Source: Pseudoclavibacter caeni (lineage in GTDB: Bacteria; Actinomycetota; Actinomycetes; Actinomycetales; Microbacteriaceae). Taken from it: DNA of 64,000 nucleotides. The stretch is taken from the NCBI RefSeq assembly GCF_008831125.1, contig NZ_WBKA01000006.1:1-64000 (forward strand), in the 5' to 3' direction. Position numbers and translations under genes: made by a program. The first letter of the stretch is position 1. Each line of letters starts with the position of its first letter. The notes beneath the pieces are model-generated. The model was not told the origin of the DNA and did not search any database. It saw only the letters and a list, made by a program, of their open reading frames with translations. This document shows positions 651 to 16,334 of the stretch, piece after piece.

Positions 651-1868
651 TTATATGGAGACGCTAATAATTGATGACAGAATATCTGAATGATATTGCA
701 GGTCTGTCTGACCAAAGACTAAAAGATTTAAATACAAAAAATCGAAAACTAGTATTAAAAGAGGGAATATATTCAGTTTGTCTTTAAAACGCTTCGCAAT
801 AAAGGAGTAAGAAAAGGGTCTGAAGAACCCAAAGTAAAGTGGAATCCTATACAAAGGGTAGCTGATTAGACGGATTGGAAGTAAGATAGCCTCTATCAGG
901 GAAATAACTAAAAATATTAAAGCCATTATGCGAGTCCCAACGTTCGAAGAAGAGGATTTAACATTTTGAAATTCTCCGAGCGAATCGGAGAATTGCAAAT
1001 TTGCAAAAGGTTGTATTGGGCGTTTTGAGCGCATTGATAAGTATAAAAGAACAACAAACGGAATCCTATAAAGAGCGCCAAGACCTAAGGAGCGTCCTAC
1101 TCCATAACTAGAGCTAGTATAGACCTGATATTTTGATTCTTCAAAGAAAGAAGAAAAGTTTTGAAATATTGTACCAAAACTAACAGACAATATGATAGAA
1201 CCAATAACAACAACTAGAGCTACACGATGTTTGCGTTTCGACTTAATTAGCAAAAGAGCAATCAGCCATATTAGCAGACCGATAACTGCCGTCGCGTGAA
1301 AGAATATAGCCGAAATAACAATAAGCAAGGAAACAATCTTGCGCTTTGGATTTGCCAGCAATACGGAAACTGCCAGGAGAATCATCGCCATAGATATACT
1401 CTGACGGAGCAGGTTGAAAGTTTCAAAGTATATCGTAAGAAGATATGTTGACCAAAATATAAATGGAGAAAGATTCTTACGGATTAGATACCCGGCAGAA
1501 AAAATCAGCGAAGATATGGAGAAGGACAACAGACCATAGTATACATGTGGGTTGTCCGTAAAACGAGAAACAAGATAATTGATTAACAGATACCCTGATT
1601 CGATATCTAGATTATAGCCCTGAACTTGATTTACGAACTCTCCGTATGTTGAAGAGTTTGCAGCAAAGTCGAAAATGGGATTACCGTATACCAAGACATC
1701 AGTGCCGCCTGAGACATCAAGATTGCGGACTCCAGCGATAACTGAGACGATAGCAATAGCAATAAGGCCACAAAAGAACTTAAATACATAAGATGAAGCT
1801 ATACGGTCCGAGAAAGAACAAGAGACGAGTATTGCAGAGATTGCAAAAGCAAGATATACGATATACAT
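651..1868 (-). CDS. EpsG/Wzy-like polysaccharide polymerase (multi-pass membrane protein)
   Basis: Probable polymerase that joins lipid-linked repeat units of an exported polysaccharide at the outer face of the membrane. The 405-residue product is nearly all hydrophobic segments, about ten to twelve, starting with a membrane helix at residues 1-20. After the second helix comes a conserved-looking external stretch (AGVRNLDVSGGTDVLVYGNP), where EpsG-family proteins carry an Arg and a GTD-Y type motif. It is the last gene of the manA operon, 11 bases after the flippase. It is strikingly AT-rich: I counted 22 of 60 G+C at 661-720. Wzy and EpsG families diverge strongly, so EpsG-like is a fold-level call; O-antigen ligase is a weaker alternative. 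Confidence 0.65.
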   Translation of the reverse strand: MYIVYLAFAISAILVSCSFSDRIASSYVFKFFCGLIAIAIVSVIAGVRNLDVSGGTDVLVYGNPIFDFAANSSTYGEFVNQVQGYNLDIESGYLLINYLVSRFTDNPHVYYGLLSFSISSLIFSAGYLIRKNLSPFIFWSTYLLTIYFETFNLLRQSISMAMILLAVSVLLANPKRKIVSLLIVISAIFFHATAVIGLLIWLIALLLIKSKRKHRVALVVVIGSIILSVSFGTIFQNFSSFFEESKYQVYTSSSYGVGRSLGLGALYRIPFVVLLYLSMRSKRPIQPFANLQFSDSLGEFQNVKSSSSNVGTRIMALIFLVISLIEAILLPIRLISYPLYRIPLYFGFFRPFSYSFIAKRFKDKLNIFPLLILVFDFLYLNLLVFGQTDLQYHSDILSSIISVSI

Positions 1869-1879
1869 AATTCAGTCGC

Positions 1880-3358
1880 CTAGAAGCGCAAGTGACGTTT
1901 TGCTAATCCAAAACGGTGAATCAACCGTAGGAATAGCATAAAAGAAAGCAAAAGCCATAACGCTGAAAACGCAAACACTCCGACTAACTCATTGCCGAAG
2001 ATATCAAATATATTAACAATTTGAGCTGCAAGGAACAATACGATGCCAATTAGAAACCATGAAAATGGAATTAAGATGTCATACAGGAAAACATCGCGGT
2101 AGGGTAAATGCAAAAAGCGCATAGCTATGAAAAGATATATGGGTTCAAGAACAATAATGGGAATAATAACCCCAAGCGCTACACCCGCCATGGATTCGAG
2201 TCGTTGGGCTAAGAGCCACGAAAGAGTTAATGCCGAAATCATCCAAATTGAGTGAAGAACCGCATAGGGGCGAGTTTGGCCGGTAGCAGTCAAAAGCGGA
2301 ATGGCTATTAAATGCATACCATTAACAATTAATGATACAATGAGAATCTGAGCGGGTAAAACTGCTTCATGATAGGAGTCTCCGACCCATAACGATATCC
2401 AAGTCGACATGAACCCAATTGCTAAAACTGCAACGCTGTTCATAAGTAAATTTCCGATACCGGTAAATGCGATATAGATAATGCCATTAGAGCGTACATC
2501 ACCATGTCCGATATTTTGGGCTGCATCAGGTAAGACGACAAATCCCAAAGAGTTTGTTACTTCTTTTACAAAGGTATAGACTTTTTGTGCAATATTGTAC
2601 TGGCCTGCCGCTTGTGCACCGAATATAGATCCCGATATTAGACTTCCAGATTGCACGATAAGTGAGCCACTCACTTGTATAACTACGAGATTTATACTTG
2701 TAGTAAATAGCTCAGGAAGTATTTTGGATTCAAAGCCCCAGCATCTAGCCAAAGGGTAACGCTTATGGACCATAATGACGACCGAGGCTAAGTACAGAAT
2801 GGAGACCAGAGCCTCAGCAACGCCAACCCCTAAAAGCCCATAGCCTGAAACTAAAGCATATACCATCAAAGAAATTCTAAAGACGTTTTGAGCTATCTGT
2901 AATAGATTTGAAGCTATTAGACTCCCCAAACCGATTAGTATTTGCCTGTAAGCTGAAACAACAAAAGAAACAATAACAACTATCGCATACAACGCAGAAA
3001 GTTGATATATTTGTTTATCTAGCAGATCATGGATTCCGAAGTTGTTTGAGAAAAAACTTAATATACAATAGTAGACGATTCCAGCCGTCAAGCCAAGTGA
3101 AGCAAATATAGATTTGGTCGTCTTGGCAACTGAACGTATAAGATCAGACTTGCCTGCTCCTTGTGCAATCCCCAGCAAGCGAATTGAGGAATTAGTCATC
3201 CCCATGTCTTGTTGGAGCATGACTGCCACAGTAGAAAAGATCACATAGAACCCGTAAACCTGAAGATCAGTTGACCATATAAACAGGGGAGCAATCGCAA
3301 GATTGACAACGAGCGCGACGAATCTCACGCTATAAGTTGATAACACTTTATTCAGCAT
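1880..3358 (-). CDS. Wzx-type oligosaccharide flippase
   Basis: Membrane transporter expected to flip undecaprenyl-linked repeat units across the cytoplasmic membrane. The 492 residues contain about twelve to fourteen hydrophobic helices beginning MLNKVLSTYSVRFVALVVNL, the length and layout of the MATE-like polysaccharide biosynthesis (RfbX/Wzx) family. The start overlaps the end of the pyruvyl transferase by 11 bases, so the two are probably translationally coupled, and the polymerase follows after 11 bases. Flippase, polymerase and pyruvyl transferase form a compact export module. Composition is low (24 of 60 G+C at 2641-2700), unlike the chromosome around it, which suggests acquisition by transfer. 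The substrate cannot be inferred. Confidence 0.85.
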   Translation of the reverse strand: MLNKVLSTYSVRFVALVVNLAIAPLFIWSTDLQVYGFYVIFSTVAVMLQQDMGMTNSSIRLLGIAQGAGKSDLIRSVAKTTKSIFASLGLTAGIVYYCILSFFSNNFGIHDLLDKQIYQLSALYAIVVIVSFVVSAYRQILIGLGSLIASNLLQIAQNVFRISLMVYALVSGYGLLGVGVAEALVSILYLASVVIMVHKRYPLARCWGFESKILPELFTTSINLVVIQVSGSLIVQSGSLISGSIFGAQAAGQYNIAQKVYTFVKEVTNSLGFVVLPDAAQNIGHGDVRSNGIIYIAFTGIGNLLMNSVAVLAIGFMSTWISLWVGDSYHEAVLPAQILIVSLIVNGMHLIAIPLLTATGQTRPYAVLHSIWMISALTLSWLLAQRLESMAGVALGVIIPIIVLEPIYLFIAMRFLHLPYRDVFLYDILIPFSWFLIGIVLFLAAQIVNIFDIFGNELVGVFAFSALWLLLSFMLFLRLIHRFGLAKRHLRF

Positions 3359-4379
3359 GATGACGCAGCCTGTGCTTCACTTTATATTTAAATGTGTTCC
3401 AACTGTTCGTTATCATGAATGTTGATTCAATACGGTTGAAATAATCTGCTATTTCACGTCGATCATAAATATCTATCAAAAAATCGTTGACATCAGCGTA
3501 TGGCCGTGGCTGGTTTCCAGTAAAACCTCTTACTCGTTCTATTAAATCATTCCGCAGTTTGATGTGTTGTACCGGATTAGTAAATTTGTCCAGATTTAGT
3601 TTTCCACTATGTATATCGCCCAGGAACGTTTGTGCACTTATATAAGTGTGACTCAAGTCAGTAAGCCCCTCAAGTCTTTTAGGTTCGAACATATTCCCAC
3701 GTGGCACAAAAACCACAGGTGTACCGAGCGCAAGACATGGAAGCATGACGTGAATACGACTGGTTACAACGAACGATGCTGATTGATAAATCCCTAATAA
3801 GGTTCTAGCTATCCGCATCCTCCGCTGAGTATTTTTCATTGCAGGGACATTAGCCGATAAACGAATTACATCTTTTGAAGCACTTTGTGATATTGCATTT
3901 GCAACATCTTTGTCGACATCAACTGTTACGCCGAAGGGCTGCTTACGAAGCGTAGAAATCCTTTGCAGGGTCAAGGTCAAACATCCAGAGAAATATGCAT
4001 TGAGCCCCAAACTCCGTAAATATTTTAGAGTAGATAGGTCTCTCGCTCCAAGCGCGCCTATACCTTTCACGTATTTTAAGCTTTGCTCTTTTTCAAATCG
4101 CTTTCGAACAATCGAATTCCCGTATTCAATATGCATTGCAATCGGTAAAAAATCATACTGTTGTGCAGGTGGCCAGCTGAACCTCTTTCCTCCATACCAT
4201 GCGTTGCCTATCAATTTAATCTTATCCATATCAGATGACCAACCACCATCATTAGCGATTTCATCTCGATAAACGTATGTTTTTCCTGTACCCTCGGGGA
4301 GATATGCTTCAGCGGCGACGCTTTGAACGTCATCGCCTATATTTGTCGTATTGTATGCCATCACAGCAAAACTAGTCAC
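3348..4379 (-). CDS. Polysaccharide pyruvyl transferase family protein
   Basis: Predicted to transfer pyruvate from phosphoenolpyruvate onto a sugar as a ketal, adding negative charge to the polymer. The 343-residue protein starts with GTG at 4379 and opens with the family signature AYNTTNIGDDVQSVAAEAYL. A second typical segment, SRIHVMLPCLALGTPVVFVP, lies in the C-terminal half (about residues 205-225), with the Arg-Ile-His of the nucleotide-binding lobe. It follows the GT4 gene after a 65-base gap containing alternative hairpins and overlaps the flippase. AT-rich. CsaB (cell-wall pyruvylation) and the Wca/Pss capsule enzymes are relatives; the acceptor sugar is unknown. Confidence 0.8.
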   Translation of the reverse strand: MTSFAVMAYNTTNIGDDVQSVAAEAYLPEGTGKTYVYRDEIANDGGWSSDMDKIKLIGNAWYGGKRFSWPPAQQYDFLPIAMHIEYGNSIVRKRFEKEQSLKYVKGIGALGARDLSTLKYLRSLGLNAYFSGCLTLTLQRISTLRKQPFGVTVDVDKDVANAISQSASKDVIRLSANVPAMKNTQRRMRIARTLLGIYQSASFVVTSRIHVMLPCLALGTPVVFVPRGNMFEPKRLEGLTDLSHTYISAQTFLGDIHSGKLNLDKFTNPVQHIKLRNDLIERVRGFTGNQPRPYADVNDFLIDIYDRREIADYFNRIESTFMITNSWNTFKYKVKHRLRHHAE

Positions 4380-4404
4380 AAGAGACCTATCTTCCTATTA
4401 CGCA

Positions 4405-4433
4405 CAGGGGGTTGTACACCCCCTAAACCCCTG
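4405..4433. other. Two competing hairpins at the composition boundary
   Basis: AGGGGGT (4406-4412) can pair with ACCCCCT (4418-4424). Alternatively CAGGGG (4405-4410) can pair with CCCCTG (4428-4433); the two stems exclude each other. They sit in the 65-base gap between the GT4 and pyruvyl transferase genes, where the operon turns AT-rich. They could attenuate read-through or be a recombination scar. Confidence 0.4.
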
Positions 4434-4444
4434 GGATAGCTCCT

Positions 4445-5485
4445 TCAGATATTCACATACCTGAGTTTCTTTACTGTATCCACCCAAGAAACGAATTCTA
4501 CTTCCTTGCGGCTTTCTTGACCCTTCGTGATAGCAGTGTTAATTGCCTTTCCTATATCCGCAGGTTCCACTTTTGCCACAACTGCTCTCGGGAATATGTT
4601 CAGGACACCGATGTCTTCTGTTACAACAGCAGGAATAGCAAAATACTCGGCTTCAGCGATAGGCAGCCCAAAACCTTCGTCACTCGAGGCTAGGACTATA
4701 CAACTTGCCCATTTAACTAGTGAATGGTACTCGTCATCACTAACAAAGCCGGGGAAAATTACCCTATCGTGCACCCCCGCAACGGAAGCATACTTCTCCA
4801 AATATTTTAGATACTCACCTCGTGCACCGAGCACAACCAAGTTAAATTCTTTCGGGACACCTTTCCACGCATCAATCACAAGCTCAGGTCGCTTATTATT
4901 ATGATGCCCATATGTAACTACATAATTCGGCCCAATTCCAGACAGGAAACTGTCGTCAAAATCCCACCGGCGTGCGTGATCCCAACCATTCGGGACAATC
5001 TTAGTTTTAGCTCCAGGCGCTATTTGATGAGTTTCATACTCCGCTTTTGACGAGATGCATGCGTTCAGCCCAGCCGTACGCGCTGAGAGTACCCACAGCT
5101 TCCGATACAACTTCTGCGAGGTTGAGAACTCCTCCGGCCGCCGGATGTGGCGCCAGTCGTGCTGAAAACAGATGCTTCGTGACTTCGGCACCAGGGGGGA
5201 GACGATAGGACTCAGCGAGATCACACGATCAGCACGTTGAAGCAGACCAATGAGAGGACTAACGAATAACTGCCCGACTGACCTTCCTGCAACGTGTTCA
5301 TTGTTCCATACTATGAATTTGATGTCTGGAACTGATACCAGCTTCTGCTGCAGCGCTCTCCCCCCGACCACAGTCATCCTATCGGCAGGAAACTCTTCAC
5401 GCCAGGTCCGGATGATCTCCATGGCGTGCAGCATCATCCCGCCAGAGAACCGTGTCGCCCCCAGCGCGTCAATCACTACTCTCAT
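4445..5485 (-). CDS. GT4-family glycosyltransferase
   Basis: Retaining, GT-B fold sugar transferase that probably adds a residue to the lipid-linked repeat unit at the inner membrane face. I place the start at 5485 (MRVVIDALGATRFSGG), because this ATG overlaps the TGA of the GT2 gene as ATGA and because family members begin at this strand; an open frame extends 47 codons further upstream but overlaps the GT2 gene. The C-terminal domain has the GT4 signature E-x7-E in SSDEGFGLPIAEAEYF and a nucleotide-binding start (YVVTYGHHNNKRPELVIDAW). 346 residues. The composition is intermediate to low (25 of 60 G+C at 4801-4860). Donor and acceptor are unknown. Confidence 0.85.
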   Translation of the reverse strand: MRVVIDALGATRFSGGMMLHAMEIIRTWREEFPADRMTVVGGRALQQKLVSVPDIKFIVWNNEHVAGRSVGQLFVSPLIGLLQRADRVISLSPIVSPLVPKSRSICFQHDWRHIRRPEEFSTSQKLYRKLWVLSARTAGLNACISSKAEYETHQIAPGAKTKIVPNGWDHARRWDFDDSFLSGIGPNYVVTYGHHNNKRPELVIDAWKGVPKEFNLVVLGARGEYLKYLEKYASVAGVHDRVIFPGFVSDDEYHSLVKWASCIVLASSDEGFGLPIAEAEYFAIPAVVTEDIGVLNIFPRAVVAKVEPADIGKAINTAITKGQESRKEVEFVSWVDTVKKLRYVNI

Positions 5486-6313: not shown

Positions 6314-7843
6314 TCAATACGCCCCCTCAGGTTTGAACAGCACTTTCACCGTGCGGAAGAGGATCTGCATGTCGCCGATGAACGACCAGTTCTCCACGTA
6401 GTACAGATCAAGACGGATCGCCTGCTCCCATTCGAGATCAGACCGCCCACTGACCTGCCAGATGCCTGTGACACCGGGGCGCACGTTGAGGCGCCTGGCC
6501 GCAGCGTCGTCGTAGAGATCGACCTCCGCCTGCACCTGCGGTCTGGGCCCGACGAGGCTCATGTCGCCCCGCAGCACGTTGATGAACTGCGGCAGCTCGT
6601 CGAGTGAGTACATGCGGATGACGTGTCCGACCTTTGTGATGCGCGGGTCGTTCTCGATCTTGAACAGCGGCTTGTCCGTGGTGCCTTGCTTCTCAAGCAG
6701 CGACTTGAGCTCCTGATCGGCGTTCTGCCGCATCGAACGGAACTTGAACATCTCGAACGGCTCACCATCTTTGCCGATGCGCTTGTGTCTGAACAGCACC
6801 GGGCCCGGTGATGTCGTCTTCACGGCGATGGCCACAGCGAGCATCACGGGTGAGAGCACGATCAATGCCACCCCTGACGCCACGATGTCGAACGTGCGCT
6901 TGATCAGCAGCGTGCGGCCGTCGAACCGTGGGGTCTCCACATGGATGAGCGGCAGGTTCGCCACTGGACGGCTGTGGATGCGGGGGCCGGCCACGTCGAC
7001 GAGACTTGGCGCCAAGACCAGGTGCCGCCGGCCGGGCTCCAGCGACCAGCTGAGCCGCCGCACCCGCTTCGGGGTCATGTGCCGTGACGCGGTGACGATG
7101 ACGGTGTCGATGTCGTGTTCGGCGATGAGTCGTTTCGCGTCGTCAAGCCCACCGAGCACGGGCACCCCGGTGTCGCCGAGCATCTGCCCGGTCACTGAGT
7201 TCGCCGTGCATGCGCCCACGAGTGCGAACTCGGTATCGCCCCGACGGGTGAGCTCACGGGCGATCGCCGTGGCCGTGTCTGACCCGCCCACGATGAGCGC
7301 CGGCACCTTGAACCGCCCGAACGTGCGCTGCCGGTTGAGCCACCGCCGCCACAACCACCGTTCGATCAGCAGCAGAAGCAATCCCACCGGCAGCGCGATC
7401 AGGAAGTACCCACGAGCGAACTGCACCTTGAGCAGGTAGCTGCCGATCGCGAGCACCCCAAAATACACCAAGGTTGCTCCAGCCACCCGCTTGTACTCAT
7501 CGGTGCCCGATCCCAGCCGGCTCTCGTCATAGGTGTGGTACGCGCCGAGCAGCAGCAGCCAAGCGAGGCCGCCCAGAATCGAGAACGGCAGGTAGCTGAG
7601 CGGCACCTGGCTGAACGCGCCGAAGACCGTCACGTCCTGATCCGCCGGACCGAAACGCACCAGGTGGGCGACGACCATGGCCAAGGTGATCACAGCCGCA
7701 TCGGACCAGAACAGCGCGTGCACGTAATGGTGCAGGGCGCGGCGGGTGGTCGCCCGCTGTCGAGTCTCACACTGGCCAGCGACAGACGCTGTCTCGGGCG
7801 CCGCGGCCGGAGCATCCGGCTGTGAATGCACAGTGCCGCTCAT
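6314..7843 (-). CDS. Undecaprenyl-phosphate sugar phosphotransferase (CpsE/WbaP type)
   Basis: Starts repeat-unit assembly by moving a sugar-1-phosphate from a nucleotide sugar to undecaprenyl phosphate. The 509 residues have four to five N-terminal membrane helices (about 40-160), a Rossmann-like CoA-binding type domain ([16 protein letters not shown]), one more helix near residue 320, and the C-terminal bacterial sugar transferase domain. There the hallmark segments are [32 protein letters not shown] and [12 protein letters not shown]. Its ATG overlaps the stop of manA as ATGA, so the mannose supply gene and the initiating enzyme are coupled. Composition (37 of 60 G+C at 7081-7140) is close to the host. 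Which sugar it loads is not readable. Confidence 0.92.
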
Positions 7844-9087
7844 GCCACGACCTCGGTAGCGCCGGCGACAAGCACCATCCCGTGCCCCTCGGCGTCGTCG
7901 GCGAACTCGGCACGGGCGACATCCACGAGCAGCGCCGCCTGCCCGGTGCCGAGGTGCTGCACGGTGCCATCGGTGTTCACGAGCGTGAGCGCGCCGCGCA
8001 GCACGTAGGCGATGTCGCCGTCGTGGAACGGCACGTCGATCGCCCCCTGTGCGTGTGCACGGGTGAAGGCGAGACGCAGGCCGGCGCCGGCGGCGTGGAA
8101 GACCGTCATCGGCCCCTTGTGATACTCGAACAGGCGCTCGGGCCCCTCGGCGTCGAAGTCGAGCACGCGCAGCAGCTCGGCGGCGTCCACGTGTTTCGAA
8201 GTGAGCCCCGCACGCAGCACGTTGTCACTCGGCCCCATGAGCTCCACGCCCACACCGCTGATGTAGAAGTGGGGAGTGCGGGGCCGCAGGTATGCGGCCT
8301 GGCCGCGCTGCAGCCGCTGGTGGTGCAGCAGCAGGCTGAACGCGGTGCCCGGGTCACCGGGGTACGTCTCGAGCAGCCGGGCCAGCAACGCGCCCCGCGT
8401 CTCATCGGGCAGGGCACCGGTGAGCCGACCCGCATCATGCAGGTGCTGCAGACGGGCTGTGGCCCGCCGGGCGCCAGCCCGGTCGGCGTCGAGCAGCCGG
8501 TGCGCGGCCGCCTCGATCGGCGCCTCGTCCGCGAGCGCGGCAAGCAGGCCAGACCAGGCTGGGTCGGTGTCGAGCGCGGCAAGTACCTCGACATCCGCGG
8601 CGATCTCCTCCGCAGGTCGGAACCCGGCGCACAGCTCGAACACATCACTCAGCACGAAGATCATCTCGGGCTTCGCATTGGGGTCGCGGTACTCGCGCTG
8701 TGGGGCGTCGATCGGCACCCCTGCGGCCTCCTCCCGGGCGAACCCGGCCCGGGCCTGAACGGCATCCGGGTGCACCTGCACGCTCAGCGGCCGCTCGATC
8801 GCCAGCAGCTTCAGCAGGAACCCCACGTCGACCGGCCGGCCCTCCGCCGCGAGCGCCGTGGGCAGCGACTGCCCGGCACGCGGCCCCTCCGCGACGACCG
8901 ACGGCCAGGCCGGGTGCGTGCCCAGCCACAGCTCCGCCTCCGGGGCGTCTGCATCCGTGACCGGGAACACGCCGTCGATCGACGTGCCCGTGTGGAAGGC
9001 CCGGGAGACACTCCCGCGCAGCCTGCCGAGCGCCCCCGGCGCGCCCCAATCGTACGCGCGCGGCTCGTTGTCAATGACGAACGCCAT
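7840..9087 (-). CDS. manA: Mannose-6-phosphate isomerase, class I
   Basis: Interconverts fructose-6-phosphate and mannose-6-phosphate in the cytoplasm, feeding GDP-mannose and mannosylated surface polymers. The 415-residue protein shows the zinc site of type I enzymes: the Gln and His of PLSVQVHPD, the Glu of AKPEMIFVL, and the His of RTPHFYISG. The catalytic Arg loop is SDNVLRAGLTSKHVD. The ATG at 9087 is preceded by AAGGGGAGAC. It is the first gene of the polysaccharide operon and overlaps the next gene by four bases, so it probably serves that pathway, though it may also serve general mannose metabolism. Confidence 0.95.
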   Translation of the reverse strand: MAFVIDNEPRAYDWGAPGALGRLRGSVSRAFHTGTSIDGVFPVTDADAPEAELWLGTHPAWPSVVAEGPRAGQSLPTALAAEGRPVDVGFLLKLLAIERPLSVQVHPDAVQARAGFAREEAAGVPIDAPQREYRDPNAKPEMIFVLSDVFELCAGFRPAEEIAADVEVLAALDTDPAWSGLLAALADEAPIEAAAHRLLDADRAGARRATARLQHLHDAGRLTGALPDETRGALLARLLETYPGDPGTAFSLLLHHQRLQRGQAAYLRPRTPHFYISGVGVELMGPSDNVLRAGLTSKHVDAAELLRVLDFDAEGPERLFEYHKGPMTVFHAAGAGLRLAFTRAHAQGAIDVPFHDGDIAYVLRGALTLVNTDGTVQHLGTGQAALLVDVARAEFADDAEGHGMVLVAGATEVVA

Positions 9088-9156
9088 GTCTCCCCTTGTC
9101 CCCGGTCACCGCCTGCCGGCACCGGCCGGACGTTCTCCCCACGATGACCCCACGAA

Positions 9157-9184
9157 AGTCTAGGGCATCCGTATGACACACAAA
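9157..9184 (-). promoter_or_regulatory. Candidate promoter of the manA-polysaccharide operon
   Basis: On the minus strand TTTGTG (9179-9184) and TAGACT (9157-9162) are 16 bases apart. The predicted start would leave about 60 bases of leader before manA. The -35 is poor, so this is a candidate only. Confidence 0.35.
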
Positions 9185-9298
9185 GTGTGGAACTCTAAAC
9201 GGTCATCACAGCCGGCGTCGTGATTCACCCCCGGCTCGCCCTCAGGTCACCCGCCACGCTGGGATGAATCCCATGGGCCTGCCCAGCACCAGCGACGT

Positions 9299-9328
9299 CA
9301 TGTGCCCCTTTGAGCCGCCCGGCACATG
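9299..9328 (-). terminator. Weak hairpin downstream of the proline-rich membrane protein gene
   Basis: CATGTGCC (9299-9306) and GGCACATG (9321-9328) form a perfect 8-base stem with a 14-base loop, starting 41 bases after the stop codon of the gene at 9370. No T-run follows, so termination would be factor-assisted if it occurs. The rest of 9185-9369 shows nothing else. Confidence 0.35.
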
Positions 9329-9369
9329 GGCTCATGCCCGATGTGTTCCGCCCGTTTCGGGCCAGGCGC

Positions 9370-10926
9370 CTAGAACTGCCCGAACTCGAGCTGCGGTGTG
9401 CCGTTCGCACCGACCGTGACGGCGACGACCGTGTGCCCGGAGAAGACGTTGTCGTCCACCGCGGTGTCACTCATCCAGTCCTGTTCCTCGGTGACCCGCC
9501 ACTTGTAGTCGATGTGCAGGTCGCCACCGGAGACGACGACCGAACCGGTCAAACCGTTCTGTGCCAGATCCTCATCCGCCCACGCGTTCGACGAGCCGCT
9601 CCCGAAGCTGAACGATCCGGAGTTCGACGATGATGCGGTGTCCGCGCCATCCTTGAACGTCACCGTCGGGGCGCTCGACCACGTACGGGTGATGCCGGTG
9701 ACGGCATAGCCGGGGTCATTCATCTTGAGATGTTTGCAACCGTCCGGCTCGAAATGGTCCGAGGCCAGACATCCACTGATGCGCTGGTTGACCGCGTTGA
9801 CCGCGTATTGACGCCCCGCCTCTGTCCAGGACTGGCCGAACGCGACCGCCTGTGTGTCCGTGTCGCCGGGCACCACACTGATTGTGACCGGGTCGCCGAA
9901 GGTGATGTACTGGCTCGTCTTCTGCGGGGTGAAGGTGTACTTCCCCGGCAGCACCGGCATCTCGTCACCGCTGGAGAGCGAGACCGCGACGCCGTTGACG
10001 GTCGTGACCGATTCCGGAGACGCCACCTGGACGGAGCCGAGCCCGCCGTCCGTCAGCTGCCATGCGTCGAAGATCACGTCGGCGGTGCCGGTCTTGTGCA
10101 GGGTCAGTGTCATCGGGTACGACTTGCCGTCGAGGGTGACCGAGGCAGACACCGTCGCATCCGCGCCGGAGACGACGGTGTCATCGATCGAGAAGTCGCT
10201 CGGCCGCTTCGCCGACGCGGCGTAGATATCTTTGTTCAGCAGGGCGCGCGCGGCATTCGTGACATTCGGTGCCGCCATCGACACGACCGTGTCGACGTCA
10301 CCATCCACCACCGCCTGCAGGTACTCTCGGGCCTTCGCCTCGGGCCCGTAGGTGGAGGTGTTCTTCACCGCACGGAAGATGAACCCGCCGCCCACGAGCA
10401 GCCCGAGCATCACGACGATCACGAGGGCGATGATCCACCCGCGCTTCGCCTGCGACTTCTGCGGCGTAGCGGCCTCCCACCCGAACATGTCACCAGGCGC
10501 TGTGCCGTACGGTGGCTGCCCGCCCGCGGGCGGCATCGGGATGTCGGCAGGCGGGTACGCCCCGGGCTGCGGAACCTGGCCTGAGTACACATCGGGCTGT
10601 GGGTACTGGGCATGTGCGGCCAGGCGTGAATTCGCATCAGGCTGCGGGATCTGGGCAGGGGCTGTCTGAGCCGGGTATGCATCCGGCTGCGGGATCTGGT
10701 CGGGTATCGCGTGTTGCGAGAAGACGCCTGCGGCTGCGTCCGAGCCGTTCACCGGGGCCTTGCTCGCCGCGGCCGACGACACCGGAGGCATGCCCTTGAA
10801 CATGTTGGGAAACCCTGCGGGTGCGTTCTGACCGACCGACGTCGAATCCACCGACACCGCGTCGACGCGCTCCGGGTGCGACGACGCCCCAGCGTTCGAC
10901 GTCCCGTTCGAGTCCTGCTCACTCAT
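9370..10926 (-). CDS. Single-pass membrane protein with Pro/Gln-rich repeats and a large exported domain
   Basis: Function unknown. I start at ATG 10926 (MSEQDSNGTSNAG), behind GGGAGGGATGAGTCG; the longer frame adds 21 improbable residues. The first 150 residues are disordered and contain four variants of a PQPDAY-like unit (IPQPDAYPAQ, IPQPDANSRL, YPQPDVYSGQ, VPQPGAYPPA). Basic residues precede one membrane helix (WIIALVIVVMLGLLVGGGFIF, about 164-184), so the remaining about 330 residues should be outside. That domain starts with a DUF4878-like segment (AREYLQAVVDGDVDTVVSM), has one cysteine pair (GCLASDHFEPDGCKH), and a Ser/Gly-rich patch before the C-terminal strands. The layout recalls actinobacterial stress- or substrate-sensing membrane proteins. 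No operon partner is close. Confidence 0.7.
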   Translation of the reverse strand: MSEQDSNGTSNAGASSHPERVDAVSVDSTSVGQNAPAGFPNMFKGMPPVSSAAASKAPVNGSDAAAGVFSQHAIPDQIPQPDAYPAQTAPAQIPQPDANSRLAAHAQYPQPDVYSGQVPQPGAYPPADIPMPPAGGQPPYGTAPGDMFGWEAATPQKSQAKRGWIIALVIVVMLGLLVGGGFIFRAVKNTSTYGPEAKAREYLQAVVDGDVDTVVSMAAPNVTNAARALLNKDIYAASAKRPSDFSIDDTVVSGADATVSASVTLDGKSYPMTLTLHKTGTADVIFDAWQLTDGGLGSVQVASPESVTTVNGVAVSLSSGDEMPVLPGKYTFTPQKTSQYITFGDPVTISVVPGDTDTQAVAFGQSWTEAGRQYAVNAVNQRISGCLASDHFEPDGCKHLKMNDPGYAVTGITRTWSSAPTVTFKDGADTASSSNSGSFSFGSGSSNAWADEDLAQNGLTGSVVVSGGDLHIDYKWRVTEEQDWMSDTAVDDNVFSGHTVVAVTVGANGTPQLEFGQF

Positions 10927-11371
10927 CGACTCATCCCTCCCCCTGAAGCGACCAGGACAAGGGTACCCTGACCGTCGCCGGACCAGCATGGGGAGAAACC
11001 CCCGAGCATGCCGGGTGGGAATCGAACATGAAAGTGCCCGGAGCTCCAGTCAGGGGGGGAAGACGCGGAACTCCGGGCAGTCACCAACAATAGCGACATT
11101 CATCGAGGAATGCATCCCCCGGATGCGACACGCCGCAGCGCACATGGAACACACAGCCGGTGACCTCGATCGGCAGGCGCCGAAGCGCCCGCGCCGAGGT
11201 CAGATCATCCGGCACTGAGCTGCCAGAGCAACTGGCTGGGAGCAGCGAGGTCGCACGAGGCCGCGGTCATCACGGCCGGCGCGGCAGGCACCCCTGCGGC
11301 GCCGGAGCATCCGCCATCGCAGTGACCATGACGCCGATCTACAGGAGGCCGGACATCACCAGGCCGCGAGG
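10927..11371. other. Intergenic region without a convincing gene
   Basis: 445 bases between two minus-strand genes. It contains one good imperfect hairpin (11036-11078, listed separately). A 76-codon frame at 10988-11218 on the plus strand has no recognisable features and I do not call it. No clear promoter for the downstream gene is visible. Confidence 0.5.
11036..11078 (-). terminator. Hairpin between the NlpC/P60 gene and the proline-rich membrane protein gene
   Basis: GCCCGGAGCTCC (11036-11047) and GGAACTCCGGGC (11067-11078) pair at 11 of 12 positions across a 19-base loop. On the minus strand it is followed by ACTTTC. It may end or trim the NlpC/P60 transcript, although it lies about 290 bases beyond that stop codon. 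Confidence 0.4.
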
Positions 11372-12715
11372 TCAGAACACGCGGCGCACGCCGTGGCTCG
11401 ACCAGACGCTCAGCGGGGTGATCTTCACCACGTCGCCGGGCTTGGGCGAGTGGATAACCAGACCGCCGCCAATGTAGATGCCCACGTGGCCGCCGCCACT
11501 CATCCAGACGAGATCGCCCGGCTGCGCGGCAGAGTCGCTCACTGCGTACCCGACGTTCATCTGCGACTGCGAGACCCTGGGCAACGAGATGCCATTGTGT
11601 GCATAGACGTAGCTGGTGAACCCACTGCAGTCGAAGCCCGCCGGCGTGGTGCCACCCCACACATAGGGCGTGCCGATGAACTGCCTGGCATACGCGACGA
11701 TCGCGGCGCCCCTGCTGCCGGTCGAGGCACTGCTGGAGCTGCTCGACGACGACGAGGAGGAGCTGTTCGAGGCCGGCTTCGACGTGGATGCCGCGGGCTT
11801 CGACGCGGAGCTGCTGCTCGACGACTGGGAGCTGTTCGAGGCCGCCCTCGACGAGCTCGTCGAGGGCGTGGCGACCACCGTCGGCGCCGCCTGCTGCACG
11901 GCAGGCACCGCGCCGGTCTGGTCGTCGGCCTCGTCGCCCGCCGAGACCGGCGCGATCTGCTGGGCCTGCTGCGTCCGCTCGGTCTGTGCCTGCTGCTTCG
12001 CCTGCTCGACGTCGCCGCCCTGCAGCTGCGCGAGCTGGGCCTTGAGCTGCACCACCTCGTCCGTCTGGCTCGTGAACAGGTCGTACGCCTGCTGCACCTT
12101 CGACTCCGCGTCCTGCGTCCGCTGGTCGTACTCGTCGGCGAGCTGCTGCAGCGCATCCTGCTGCTGCTGCATCTGGTCGCGCAACGAGGTGAGCGTGTTC
12201 GCATCCGCGATCGCCGCGTCCACCTGGGCACCGAGGTCGCCGCCGAGCTTGCCGAGCGAGCTCAGCCGGCTGAGCGCCTCGTCCGCCGACTCGACCCCCG
12301 CGACAGACGCGAGCTGCGCGCTGGTCGCCGAGCCGCCGCCGCGGCTGAGCTGGGCGGCGACCTGGCCGGCCCTCTTCTTCGAGGCGTCCGCCTGCGTCTG
12401 GGCGTCGTTGACCTGCTGCTGGAGATCGAGGAACGAGCCGATCGCATCGGTGAGCTGCTGCTGGACGCTCGCGCTCTGCGTCCTGGCGTCATCGCGAGCG
12501 CTCGCCGCCTGCTCGTACTTGCTCTCGAGGTCGTCGAGTGCGGCCTGCACGCGGTTGACGAGGGCGTCACGCTGGGTGGGGTCGTTGGCGGCGGCGTTGA
12601 TCTCGTCCCACGAGGGCTCGTCGACCGGATCGGCCACCGCCGGCACTCCGCTCCACAGCACTGCCGCGAGCGTGAGCCCGATGGCACTGGCACCTGGAAT
12701 GACGCGTGACTTCAC
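11372..12715 (-). CDS. Secreted coiled-coil NlpC/P60 peptidoglycan hydrolase
   Basis: Predicted cell-wall endopeptidase cutting stem peptides, like RipA or PcsB-type enzymes. The start is GTG at 12715, with AGGAGG four bases upstream; the longer frame is rejected. The N-terminal 28 residues are a signal peptide (VIPGASAIGLTLAAVLWSG, cut near AVA-DP). Residues 40-250 are a heptad-rich, Gln/Ala-rich coiled coil, followed by a Ser/Ala linker (about 285-330) and the NlpC/P60 domain (about 335-447). Catalytic Cys is in GFDCSGF, His in GGGHVGIY, and the third polar residue is His in VIHSPKPG. The coiled coil probably restrains or targets the peptidase, as for PcsB; that is inference. 447 residues. 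The gene is alone on its strand. Confidence 0.92.
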   Translation of the reverse strand: MKSRVIPGASAIGLTLAAVLWSGVPAVADPVDEPSWDEINAAANDPTQRDALVNRVQAALDDLESKYEQAASARDDARTQSASVQQQLTDAIGSFLDLQQQVNDAQTQADASKKRAGQVAAQLSRGGGSATSAQLASVAGVESADEALSRLSSLGKLGGDLGAQVDAAIADANTLTSLRDQMQQQQDALQQLADEYDQRTQDAESKVQQAYDLFTSQTDEVVQLKAQLAQLQGGDVEQAKQQAQTERTQQAQQIAPVSAGDEADDQTGAVPAVQQAAPTVVATPSTSSSRAASNSSQSSSSSSASKPAASTSKPASNSSSSSSSSSSSSASTGSRGAAIVAYARQFIGTPYVWGGTTPAGFDCSGFTSYVYAHNGISLPRVSQSQMNVGYAVSDSAAQPGDLVWMSGGGHVGIYIGGGLVIHSPKPGDVVKITPLSVWSSHGVRRVF

Positions 12716-13218
12716 AGTTCCTCCTCGTGCGTGACGTGGGCGACCCGGACTGCGGGCGACCGTGTCGGGGCGGGCCAGCGGCCTCGCCCCATCGACGCTG
12801 CGCTTTCGGAACCGGATCTCCATTAGTTTAAGTCGCAGCCGCGGCCAATCAGCATCGCGGCGTGTCTGAAAACTCAAGCTCAACTTGAAGCTGAATCGGG
12901 GGTGCGGGGGCTGCTGGCGGCCGGTTCGCACGCTCCGTGGAGGGCTACTCACCGTGGCGCGAGCGGGAAGTGGCTGAGGTGGCACGGGCGGGAGGGCATG
13001 GAGGTGTGCACACAGGGATGGCGTCGGGGCGGGAGTGAAGCCCGGTGATGCCACTGGCTACGTTGTGTGCTCGGCATCGCACGGGCGGGGATGCGGCTGA
13101 CGGGACGCCTTAGCGTGACGCCCTCCGGCATCAACATGGCGCCGACCACCCACCGGGCGGCGTGCAGCATCCCTGCGGAGCCGGGCCACCGGGGCGGCCG
13201 GCTGTCGCACGCTCCGGG
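12716..13218. other. Divergent intergenic region between the NlpC/P60 and RNase H-domain genes
   Basis: About 500 bases. It contains a near-palindrome, AGCTCAACTTGAAGCT (12877-12892), and on the minus strand a TAAACT about 110 bases before the NlpC/P60 start that might be a -10. I looked for the c-di-AMP (ydaO-type) riboswitch common before actinobacterial wall hydrolases and could not recognise its conserved segments. Confidence 0.4.
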
Positions 13219-13224
13219 TACAGT
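13219..13224 (+). promoter_or_regulatory. -10 hexamer of a predicted leaderless transcript (RNase H-domain gene)
   Basis: TACAGT ends eight bases before ATG 13233, and no Shine-Dalgarno lies between. With the usual 6-8 base distance the transcript would start at or next to the ATG. No good -35 is visible. This also supports ATG 13233 over the in-frame TTG at 13224. Confidence 0.5.
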
Positions 13225-13232
13225 TGAACGCG

Positions 13233-14822
13233 ATGAGACCGCAGAAGACGAAGCCAGCCGACCCGAACGTGGTGTGCTACACCGATGCCTCGTTCGACCC
13301 GCGTGCGAAGCGCGGCGTGTACGGCTGGCTGCGGCCTTGCGCCGACGACGAGACCCCCGAGCACTGGATCGGCATGCGCAAGGCGCCCTCGGTCAACCAG
13401 CTCGAGGTGCTCGCCGCGATCGCCGCCGTGCTCGCCCATCGCGACGCCGAGCACATCGTGCTGCACACCGACAGCCACGCGGTGATCGTCGCGTTCGACA
13501 ACGCCCGCCGGGGCGAGCCGGTCACCGGCATCCCCAGCGCCCGCGTGGCCGAACTGCACGACGTGCTCACCCGCGTCGACGTCGAGGTCAACAAGGTCGC
13601 CGCCCACCGCACCACCTACTGGAACAACGTCATCGACCGGGTCGTGCGCGCCGTGATGCGCCGGCTCGAGGAGAACGCCGGGCAGGTGCACCTGCCGAAG
13701 AAGGACGTCGTGCGCGCCGCTCTCGAGGAGGCCCGCCGCACCTCGACGCAGACCGCCCGGCAGGCCGAGCGGCTTGCCGCGGAGGAGGCCGCACACGCCG
13801 CCGCGAGCGAGGCCGAGGCGCACGAGAACGCCAAGCGCGAGCTCGGCACCATGGTGACCGACCTGCCTGCGCCTCGCTTCCCCGCGCTGGTGGGACTCGC
13901 GTCCTCGGCTGGTGGGGCTGACGGGGCTCGGTTCGGCGAGGCCGGGTCAGGGCGCCCATGGGGCGACGAGACTGAGTCGGGGCAGACCGAGTTCGACGAG
14001 ACCGGGGTCGGCGAGCCCGGGTCAGGGCGGCCGGAGTCCGACGAGGCCGGGTTCAGCCAGCCCGGATCCGGCGGACCCGTATTCGGCCCGGCGGGGGCAG
14101 GCGAGCCGCTGTCACATGGTCACGTCGAGGTGCCCTTCGCTCCGCCGGCCCTGCCGGTGGACTCCCCGCTCGCGCCGACGTTCGGGATCGGGGCGCCGGC
14201 CGGGCAGACCGGAGCAGACATCATCTCGACCGAGGCCGCCGCGGGTGACCGTGGGGCCGGAGCTGACCGTGGGGCTGAGGCCGGAGTCATGGCCGGGGCT
14301 GGGGCTGCCGGGTTCGGGGCCAGTCTCGACGCGCACGTCGAAACGCCTCACCCGCTCACGCCATGGGATCTTCTCGCGACCGCCTCTGCCGTGGAACAGC
14401 CCGCCGTGCCGTTCGCGACGGCTGGCACCGCACCGTTCACGGGGGCAGACGCAGAGTCCCCGGCGGCCGGCGCAGATGAGACCACCGCCGATCTTGTGGC
14501 TCCTGCGGCAGGGCCGTCTGCAGCGTCCCCCACCACTGACCAGCTGTCCGGTGTGACGAGCGACCTCACCTTCGGCGCTGCAGATGCCATCGCCGTCACG
14601 CCGCGGATCGTCCCACCGGGAGGCGATGCGCTCTTCGGCCAGACGGAGGCCGCTCGACCGGCTCAGGTGGAGTCGGCAAAGAGCCGGCAGACGGCCGAGC
14701 AGCACTCCCTCGACGCGCTCACCGCCGAAAACGCCCGGCTGCGTCGGGAGATCTCTCGCCTGCAACACGAGCAGGAGGTGCTGCGCGAGGCGCTGGCGAT
14801 CATGATGCGCGGAGCCCACTGA
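13233..14822 (+). CDS. RNase H-domain protein with repetitive low-complexity middle and C-terminal coiled coil
   Basis: Residues 12-145 are an RNase HI-like fold with all four carboxylates in order: Asp18 (YTDAS), Glu58 (NQLEVL), Asp80 (HTDSH) and Asp135 (NVIDR), plus His125 ten residues before the last one, as in E. coli RNase HI. So cleavage of RNA in RNA-DNA hybrids is plausible. Residues 150-205 are charged and helical. Residues 215-500 are Gly/Ala/Pro/Glu-rich with an about 25-residue repeat (GEAGSGRP, GEPGSGRP). The last 45 residues are a leucine-rich coiled coil (LDALTAENARLRREISRLQ). 529 residues, about three times a normal RNase HI. The tail could mediate oligomerisation or phase separation; that is inference. 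It is transcribed alone, with a leaderless-type start, and converges with glmM. Confidence 0.75.
   Translation: MRPQKTKPADPNVVCYTDASFDPRAKRGVYGWLRPCADDETPEHWIGMRKAPSVNQLEVLAAIAAVLAHRDAEHIVLHTDSHAVIVAFDNARRGEPVTGIPSARVAELHDVLTRVDVEVNKVAAHRTTYWNNVIDRVVRAVMRRLEENAGQVHLPKKDVVRAALEEARRTSTQTARQAERLAAEEAAHAAASEAEAHENAKRELGTMVTDLPAPRFPALVGLASSAGGADGARFGEAGSGRPWGDETESGQTEFDETGVGEPGSGRPESDEAGFSQPGSGGPVFGPAGAGEPLSHGHVEVPFAPPALPVDSPLAPTFGIGAPAGQTGADIISTEAAAGDRGAGADRGAEAGVMAGAGAAGFGASLDAHVETPHPLTPWDLLATASAVEQPAVPFATAGTAPFTGADAESPAAGADETTADLVAPAAGPSAASPTTDQLSGVTSDLTFGAADAIAVTPRIVPPGGDALFGQTEAARPAQVESAKSRQTAEQHSLDALTAENARLRREISRLQHEQEVLREALAIMMRGAH
13935..14090 (+). repeat. In-frame degenerate repeat in the RNase H-domain gene
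   Basis: Two near-identical blocks, ggcgaggccgggtcagggcg (from 13935) and ggcgagcccgggtcagggcg (from 14010), lie 75 bases apart, that is 25 codons. A weaker third copy (cagcccggatccggcggacc) follows near 14057. Because the period is a multiple of three, the protein keeps its frame, so copy number could vary between strains. Confidence 0.55.
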
Positions 14823-14957: not shown

Positions 14958-16334
14958 TCACGCCACCGGCTCGAGCGCCGGCAGGCTCTCGCGCACCACG
15001 TCGGCGAGCCGTTCAGCCCACTCGCGAGCGGTGGTCTCGTCGCTCGCCTCGACCATCACGCGCACGAGCGGCTCGGTGCCGCTGGGGCGCAGCAGCACGC
15101 GGCCCTGGTCGCCGAGGGCATCCTCGGCCGTGGCGACGGCCGACTTGATCGTGGGGTCGCCGGCAAGCTTCGTCTTGTCCACCCCACGCACGTTGATGAG
15201 TGTCTGCGGGTAGACGGACATCGCCTCGTCGGCGAGCTGCGAGAGAGGCTTGCCGGTCGCCGCCATGACGCTCAGCAGCTGCAGACCGGTGAGAATACCG
15301 TCGCCGGTGGTGGCGAAGCGGCGGAAGATGACGTGCCCGGACTGCTCGCCGCCGAAGCCGAGTCCCGAGCGGTTGAGCTCCTCGAGCACGTACCGGTCGC
15401 CGACAGAGGTCTGTCGCACCTCGATGCCGGCGCGCTCCATCGCTCGGTGCAGGCCGAGATTGCTCATCACGGTGCACACGAGCGTGTCGCCGGGCAGCTG
15501 ACCCCGTTCGTGCAGCGAGAGCGCGAGGATCGCCATGATCTGATCCCCGTCGATGATGCGGCCGTTCTCGTCGATCGCCTGGCAGCGGTCGGCGTCACCA
15601 TCGTGCGCGATGCCGACCTGCGCGTGGTTGGCGACGACCGCGGCCTGCAGCCGCTCGAGGTGCGTCGACCCCACGCCGTCATTGATGTTCAGCCCGTCGG
15701 GGTCGGCGCCGATCAGCTCGACCACCTTCGCCCCCGCGTCGGTGAACGCCTGCGGCGACACTCCGGAGGAGGCCCCGTTGGCGCAGTCGAGCACCATGCG
15801 AATGCCGCCCAGCGCCGGTGCGGCCGGAGGCAGCGTGCTCAACAGGTGCAGCAGGTAGCGGTCCTCCGCATCGGCGAAGGCGCTGATGCGGCCGACCTCC
15901 CCGGCGATCGGGGCGAGCTTGGGCTGGTCGAGCTCGACCTCGATGGCGTCCTCCACCGCGTCGGGAAGCTTGAGCCCGCCGCGGGCGAAGAACTTGATGC
16001 CGTTGTCCGGCGCCGGGTTGTGCGACGCCGAGATCATCACGCCGAAGTCAGCGTCCGAGTCAGCGACGAGGAACGCGGTCGCGGGCGTCGGGATGACGCC
16101 GGCGTCCTGCACGTCGACGCCGCCGCTGGCGAGGCCTGCGGCGACGGCGGCGCCCAAGAACTGCCCGGAGATCCGAGGGTCACGCCCCAACACTGCACGG
16201 GGTCTGCGCCCCGCGGACCGTGCCTCCGCGCCGAGGACACGCGCACCCGCCTGAGCGAGGTGCAGCGCGAGATCGGCCGTAAGGTCGCGATTCGCGAGGC
16301 CGCGAACACCGTCGGTGCCGAAGAGTCGAGGCAA
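14958..16334 (-). CDS. glmM: Phosphoglucosamine mutase
   Basis: Converts glucosamine-6-phosphate to glucosamine-1-phosphate, the second step toward UDP-GlcNAc for peptidoglycan. 458 residues, the usual length. The N-terminus [20 protein letters not shown] is diagnostic. The phosphoserine loop is [17 protein letters not shown] (about residue 105), the metal loop DGDADRC, and the C-terminal phosphate loop [14 protein letters not shown]. The start is TTG at 16334 with GGAG five bases before it. It follows rpsI at 50 bases on the same strand, the common actinobacterial order rplM-rpsI-glmM, so it is probably co-transcribed with those genes. Confidence 0.97.

Follow-up and report, generated by a model that had tools for sequence, protein, structure and literature searches.

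Positions 13233 to 14822 of the window, the 64,000-nucleotide stretch of Pseudoclavibacter caeni contig NZ_WBKA01000006.1 that we analyzed, hold a single intact open reading frame (ATG 13233 to stop 14822, 529 residues) encoding a divergent RNase H domain joined through a long linker to a C-terminal leucine zipper. We read the product as a genus-restricted second type 1 RNase H in which the zipper would pair two copies into a long-armed dimer, whose avidity would replace the basic protrusion that is missing from the catalytic domain. We give this reading a probability of about 0.45. What is new here is the divergent second RNase H gene, a linker conserved in length, and a zipper apparently under selection; the parts themselves are familiar, and the combination looks new. 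A search of the open-licence literature at the level of titles and abstracts found no description of the RNase H-linker-zipper layout.

The gene and its layout

The features of the gene and its surroundings are collected in Table 1. A frameshift or an assembly artefact is ruled out, since two other Pseudoclavibacter species carry the identical layout. An earlier note on this DNA, made from the letters alone, had named a frameshift, or orthologues lacking the tail, as what would speak against its reading of a fusion protein; we looked for both and found the tail and the layout kept in both orthologues.

TABLE 1 Features of the RNase H gene and its flanks, in window positions
Feature	Positions	Strand	Description
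Whole gene	13233..14822	+	529 residues; Met-Arg-Pro start common to both orthologues
RNase H domain	13233..13676	+	Residues 1-148; PF00075 match; five active-site residues present, basic protrusion absent
Long helix	13698..13853	+	Residues 156-207; AlphaFold2 helix, opening in a conserved HLPKxDVVxAALxEARRTS stretch
Acidic Ala/Gly/Pro/Ser/Thr-rich linker	13854..14708	+	Residues 208-492, probably disordered (pLDDT)
C-terminal helix with leucine zipper core	14676..14816	+	Residues 482-528
Extra heptad	14745..14765	+	Seven residues, 505-511; absent from both orthologues (zipper alignment)
-10-like element TACAGT	13219..13224	+	8 nt 5' of the ATG
Neighbor, NlpC/P60-type secreted protein	11372..13054	-	Divergent; longest frame, real start possibly further in; named by eye
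Neighbor, phosphoglucosamine mutase (glmM)	14958..16334	-	Convergent; named by eye

An alternative TTG start lies nine bases upstream of the ATG and would add three residues. Because both orthologues start at the same Met-Arg-Pro, we preferred the ATG. The sequence TAC(A/T)GT stands eight bases 5' of the ATG in all three genes (TACTGT in the orthologues), and most of the upstream DNA differs among them. A -10-like element at this spacing fits a leaderless transcript, which is our own reading of the sequence; no promoter was detected when we scanned for the sigma-70 consensus. Taken part by part, the gene had GC3 values of 0.95, 0.95, 0.78, and 0.89.

The RNase H domain keeps the active-site residues and lacks the basic protrusion

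Pfam RNase_H (PF00075) matched residues 12 to 141 of the window protein with an E value of 5.3e-9 (36.8 bits, cut-off 25.8) and the two orthologues with E values of 4.9e-13 and 3.1e-13, and the match lay above the cut-off in all three species. We then aligned the protein with other RNases HI, in rows chosen by a GNPG-type motif; 52 of the 54 loci yielded a row, three duplicates were dropped, and the two loci without such a row were members of the window gene's own family. The active-site columns hold Asp18, Glu58, Asp80, His125, and Asp135 in the window protein and are conserved in the three species, bearing out the earlier claim that the catalytic carboxylates and the His of RNase HI are present and correctly spaced. 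The identical residue was found in all 49 of the other rows at Asp18, Glu58, Asp80, and Asp135 and in 39 of the 49 at His125; the 10 rows without the His form the Rv2228c-like branch, eight of them carrying Glu in its place, one Asp, and one Ala. Three Asp and one Glu in order, with a His before the last Asp, mark a type 1 RNase H, and the window protein has them all.

The domain departs from ordinary RNase HI in the region that follows Asp80. The stretch there is 39 residues long, compared with 48 to 50 residues in 39 of the 49 other rows and 37 in the remaining 10 (the Rv2228c-like branch), and the basic protrusion, made up of helix C and a basic loop, is missing. The net charge after Asp80 is -3 in the window protein and -2 in G002, one of the two orthologue genomes, compared with a positive charge in 38 of the 39 rows of protrusion length. 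Three motifs are also changed, TNN to SVN, KGH to AAH, and DGS to DAS, and both Asn columns of TNN are invariant in the 49 other rows. The rnhA equivalog NF001236 gave the window protein 26.4 bits against a cut-off of 160, which places it outside that class.

Two AlphaFold2 models, built on 3 sequences, had mean pLDDT values of 48.0 and 46.8. The RNase H order of strands and helices is present at this low confidence (pLDDT 48, 3 sequences), and a Foldseek search with the low-confidence model placed RNase H and human RNase H chains at ranks 1 to 11 and HIV RT at rank 12, with E values from 2.9e-5 and TM scores of at most 0.52 among the best 50 matches listed. At this model quality, an RNase H fold is no more than indicated.

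The first Asn of TNN contacts the RNA 2'-hydroxyl, and the basic protrusion helps hold the substrate. Since both are altered here, substrate binding is probably weaker or changed. The earlier note had concluded that the domain looks active; the complete set of catalytic residues stands behind that, but the lost protrusion and the SVN and AAH changes qualify it. Cleavage of RNA-DNA hybrids is predicted from the catalytic residues, possibly with weaker or altered recognition of the hybrid.

Besides this gene, the genome encodes an ordinary RNase HI (E value of 1.2e-31) and an RNase HII. Because it keeps both, the second RNase H probably has a further role. That role could lie in another substrate, such as dsRNA, isolated ribonucleotides within DNA, or a particular R-loop or primer, which we consider unlikely. 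The altered SVN, AAH, and DAS motifs, the lost protrusion with negative charge after Asp80, the low rnhA equivalog score, and the retention of the two ordinary enzymes would all fit such a move, and there is a precedent in the RNase HI of Sulfolobus tokodaii, which excerpts of one paper describe as cleaving dsRNA (PMC9719913). The catalytic residues have nevertheless been retained, and archaeal RNases HI without a protrusion show RNase H activity that is weak but of the ordinary kind (PMC1950709).

The linker keeps its length and the zippers differ by one heptad

In each of the two AlphaFold2 models, residues 156 to 207 make up a single long helix, which had no Pfam match. A coiled coil in this helix is unsupported, its heptad score being equalled by 156, 350, and 374 of 500 shuffles.

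The linker that follows has 37 Asp and Glu and 10 Lys and Arg among its 285 residues, of which 174 are Ala, Gly, Pro, Ser, or Thr. With pLDDT below 50 across residues 215 to 480, it is probably disordered, in line with the low-complexity tail of about 300 residues described earlier. Its length is 285, 285, and 277 residues in the three species, at 25 to 33% identity between the window protein and the orthologues, so that it appears to be kept for length and not for sequence, as for a spacer. The earlier note had also seen a 25-residue repeat. Two copies of GSGRP do lie 25 residues apart (at 238 and 263), but the strongest self-match of the linker falls at lag 15 (11 of 20 identical, equalled by 1 of 200 shuffles), and by eye this repeat is absent from the orthologues. 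The linker DNA contains short degenerate units only. We regard the repeat as drift of low-complexity sequence.

The C-terminal helix carries a leucine zipper core, L493 L496 N500 L503 I507 L510 Q514 L517 L521 M524 (a/d positions LLNLILQLLM), as the earlier note's leucine-rich helix or coiled coil had anticipated. An equal number of core Leu, Ile, Val, or Met residues arose in 2 of 20,000 shuffles of the segment, and a stricter heptad score over the last 47 residues was equalled by 19 of 2,000. Block means of pLDDT along helix 482-528 were 66, 83, 89, 84, and 64. The a/d positions are Leu rich and keep the 3-4 spacing for some four heptads or more, as in a leucine zipper; a bZIP_2 match to the helix (E value of 0.0023) was below the family cut-off. 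The orthologue cores are shorter (LLNLHLLM, 8 positions) and not rare in composition, being equalled by 566 and 504 of 20,000 shuffles, and by 524 and 516 of 2,000 under the stricter score.

Aligning the zippers alone revealed that both orthologues lack exactly seven residues, corresponding to residues 505 to 511 of the window protein. With this heptad removed, 18 of 29 residues are identical to G002 and the 3-4 core spacing is unbroken. Because the length difference is one heptad, the coiled-coil register is preserved, and a whole-heptad indel is what a working coiled coil would be expected to tolerate.

If the zipper pairs two copies of the protein, perhaps in parallel given the Asn in the buried core at residue 500, each of the two catalytic domains of the dimer would sit on an arm some 285 residues long. 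Such a pair of heads would hold one long RNA-DNA hybrid, or two nearby, tighter than one head could, and this hold would offset the missing protrusion in the way proposed for hybrid-binding and CobC domains elsewhere; the ordinary RNase HI would remain the housekeeping enzyme of the same cell. Where an RNase HI has no basic protrusion, it may depend on a helper to hold its substrate, and those two domains are the helpers that have been proposed. A zipper on a length-kept linker, if our reading is true, would be a further solution, avidity by pairing, and the three species would offer a natural case for asking what length a disordered arm requires.

A zipper profile was searched against the four genomes of the genus (E values up to 0.1). 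Beyond the gene itself, which it recovered in three of them, it matched only two IS3-type transposase OrfA copies in G001, with E values of 0.047 and 0.053. These copies (L092 and L093, on contig C3) are near identical, with a zipper weakly like that of the window protein, and one of them matches transposase family phrog_151 (E value of 7.6e-10). The OrfA zipper, preselected as the best hit, scored 14.8 bits against the profile, a value that 0 of 500 heptad-keeping shuffles reached (437 scored, best 13.1); two other coiled coils scored 0.1 and 4.1 bits. In NCBIfam, the first match of the window zipper was an IS3 transposase (E value of 0.004, 16.4 bits against a cut-off of 160), and the two orthologue zippers had no match. 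Solved structures gave seven weak matches to the zipper, the best with an E value of 0.14. Derivation of the zipper from an IS3-type transposase is a weak lead suggested by these similarities. We regard as a long shot the fuller scenario in which these proteins are an RNase H subfamily of their own, recognize their substrate differently, and work only as a long-armed dimer on a zipper possibly taken from such a transposase, with each head able to range far along the chromosome so that one enzyme cuts a hybrid at two distant places or spans two R-loops.

Orthologues are found only in Pseudoclavibacter among the genomes searched

The genus belongs to the Microbacteriaceae in the Micrococcales. 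The family is present in three of its four genomes (G000, which is the window's genome, G002, and G003) and absent from G001. The orthologues, recorded as Pseudoclavibacter sp. CFCC 11306 (L009) and sp. 13-3 (L010), are 72% identical to the window protein over residues 1 to 180 and 70% over the domain. A profile of residues 1 to 203 gave six matches at an E value of 1e-3 in 398 Microbacteriaceae genomes, an evenly drawn sample that includes the four of the genus: the three genus loci, L011 (a distant RNase H, at 6.2e-7), and two chance matches, L012 and L013, which lie in frames of other genes and were rejected as relatives by eye. The window gene was the sole match in 297 genomes of the order at 1e-5, and in 396 genomes of the phylum at 1e-4 there were seven matches, namely, the window gene and six weak ones to other RNase HI proteins. 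Of 199 family genomes, 195 had a match to the broader RNase H profile phrog_531, and a second match occurred in G000, G002, and G003 only.

Between G002 and G003, dN/dS was 0.10 for the domain, 0.04 for the helix, 0.43 for the linker, and 0.11 for the zipper; for the ordinary RNase HI of the same pair it was 0.11 in the domain and 0.29 in the tail. By this estimate, from one species pair, purifying selection has acted on the domain, the helix, and the zipper since the two orthologue species diverged. Comparing the window gene with its orthologues gave higher values, 0.33 and 0.43 for the domain and 0.44 and 0.30 for the helix; those for the zipper, 0.55 and 0.57, are unreliable, having been computed without the heptad gap.

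Neighborhood and kinship of the gene

In the window, the gene is flanked by glmM on one side and by the divergent NlpC/P60-type gene on the other. The RNase H and NlpC genes of G002 and G003 are separated by a gene for an amino-acid permease (named by eye), whereas G001 has no RNase H gene at this place and its glmM directly adjoins the NlpC gene, at a distance of some 290 bases. The NlpC-type gene was matched in the three other genomes of the genus, and it and the region beyond are the only neighbors that we saw in common to the three species carrying the RNase H gene. Either gain in the ancestor of the three or loss in the fourth would fit this arrangement.

To look for a phage or plasmid origin, we searched 50,697 phage and 72,556 plasmid records with residues 1 to 203 (E value of 0.01) and IMG/VR with the profile of these residues; neither search gave a match, and a phage or plasmid gene was rejected accordingly. 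In a tree, the window family stood beside megaplasmid RNases H (92/99), on long branches that the program flagged as unsafe, and L011 has kin on Curtobacterium and Frondihabitans megaplasmids. A reverse search of 199 family genomes with L011 returned G002 and G003 first (7.8e-10 and 2.5e-8), with G000 (8.9e-7) merely level with ordinary RNases HI. The megaplasmid RNases H may be distant kin of the window family, but the long branches make this unsafe. Because an ordinary RNase HI, L061, scored slightly above L011 (1.3e-7 over residues 11 to 90 only, in the phylum sample), no outside relative stands out.

The patchy distribution, with the fourth genome lacking the gene at the glmM-NlpC junction, would fit a mobile-element leftover with little present function, and so would the megaplasmid kin of L011, which among full-length matches outside the genus scored best in the family. 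We hold this to be highly improbable: dN/dS is low in the domain, helix, and zipper (in the one species pair), the NlpC-side flank and the -10-like element are common to the three species, and the phage, plasmid, and IMG/VR collections had no match.

Elsewhere in the window, the four frames at 651-4904 have a GC3 of 0.35 to 0.40, compared with 0.83 to 0.88 for the frames at 6314-13054. They are probably an acquired cluster, with surface-polysaccharide genes by eye.

Comparison with known RNases H

With canonical RNase HI (rnhA, NF001236/PF00075), the window protein shares the catalytic residues and the order of elements, and differs in its low rnhA score, the missing basic protrusion, the SVN motif, and the long zipper tail.

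Proteins of the Rv2228c/MSMEG_4305/SCO2299 type, in which RNase H is joined to CobC, also have an N-terminal protrusion-less RNase H, a variable linker, and a C-terminal module. Unlike these proteins, the window protein lacks a CobC phosphatase, has His125, and falls on a separate branch of the tree. A fusion of the Rv2228c type is ruled out, with no CobC or histidine phosphatase Pfam match up to an E value of 1, in keeping with the distinction from the mycobacterial CobC-like fusion made earlier; a phosphatase domain was recognized by eye in 7 of 12 loci inspected for comparison. Excerpts of PMC7466739 describe the RNase H part, Rv2228c/N, as dimeric in crystals and suggest that the CobC domain perhaps helps the protrusion-less RNase HI. 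Mycobacterium smegmatis has two RNase HI genes that, in an excerpt of PMC4429107, are singly dispensable and jointly essential.

RNases H1 with a hybrid-binding domain, from eukaryotes and Bacillus halodurans, likewise have an accessory module, joined in B. halodurans to a protrusion-less domain; in the parts of PMC1950709 at hand, the dsRHbd is proposed to compensate for the missing protrusion. The module of the window protein is instead a coiled coil at the opposite end, and no hybrid-binding domain was matched in Pfam up to an E value of 1. The RNases H of the Curtobacterium and Frondihabitans megaplasmids and of G285 (L083, L084, and L011), which fall on the window's side of the tree, share a stretch of 39 to 44 residues, short of protrusion length, and the lack of TNN. 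Their branches are very long and the kinship unsure, and by eye they have no C-terminal zipper, in contrast to the window protein.

C-terminal additions on ordinary RNases HI of the family

C-terminal additions are common on the ordinary RNases HI of the Microbacteriaceae (best-scoring loci). A tail on an RNase H is thus normal in this family, which lowers the surprise of the tail in the window. In G001, the ordinary RNase HI (G001:C3:443954, L019/L044) continues into an Rv2466c-like domain, a mycothiol-dependent nitroreductase (PF22234, E value of 3.6e-52), a fusion of which our literature search found no description; that of the window's genome (G000:C5:267236, L001/L022) matches only positions 134 to 180 of the 180 in this profile (E value of 1.9e-12). 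Other additions are short linkers, small tails, or coiled coils, as in L026 and L060.

The motif [QP]xLF occurred in 12 of 29 ordinary RNase HI tails (shuffle mean, 0.89; maximum, 3), one of the 12, in L019, lying inside the folded domain, and LF stood at the very end in 6 of the 29 (shuffle mean, 0.065). The 29 rows (L018-L043, L001, L045, and L060) are related, so that the counts are not independent, and L001 and L022 are one gene. We take this motif to resemble the beta-clamp-binding motif, and it may tie ordinary RNase HI to the replication clamp. The ordinary RNase HI rows of G000, G002, and G003 are without it.

Such tails bear on a further reading of the window protein, which along with a new substrate is the main rival of the dimer. 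Here the zipper would bind a different protein, such as a factor of replication, transcription, or the nucleoid, and so serve as a handle for docking, with the linker providing the reach to place the RNase H at a chosen site. We rate this as possible but doubtful. The zipper is conserved separately from the catalytic part and joined to it through a drifting linker, as a handle might be, and the clamp-motif-like tails hint that targeting by a tail is a family habit. The window linker, however, holds a single LF (residue 467), which was not counted as a motif; the zipper profile found no partner in the four genus genomes, only the two IS3-type copies in G001; and the only neighbor common to the three species encodes an NlpC-type secreted protein, with the region beyond it. 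R-loops, ribosome-synthesis sites, and the nucleoid had been suggested earlier as targets of the tail, and nothing in the sequence or the neighborhood points to any one of them.

Among the ordinary enzymes, those of L026 (G113) and L060 (G175), both of genus g6, end in a linker and a short coiled coil, a layout similar to that of the window protein and perhaps reached separately. The L026 tail matched the DUF7310 coiled-coil model below the cut-off (E value of 0.0085), and the coiled coil of L060 was seen by eye. The tails of L023, L025, L027, L028, L031-L034, L037, L039, and L043 looked by eye like an NTF2-like fold; a scan of the L032 tail gave no match. Those of L018, L021, L029, L030, L035, L038, and L041 looked ribbon-helix-helix-like, and a scan of the L038 tail gave a weak NikA-like match (E value of 0.0046, below the cut-off).
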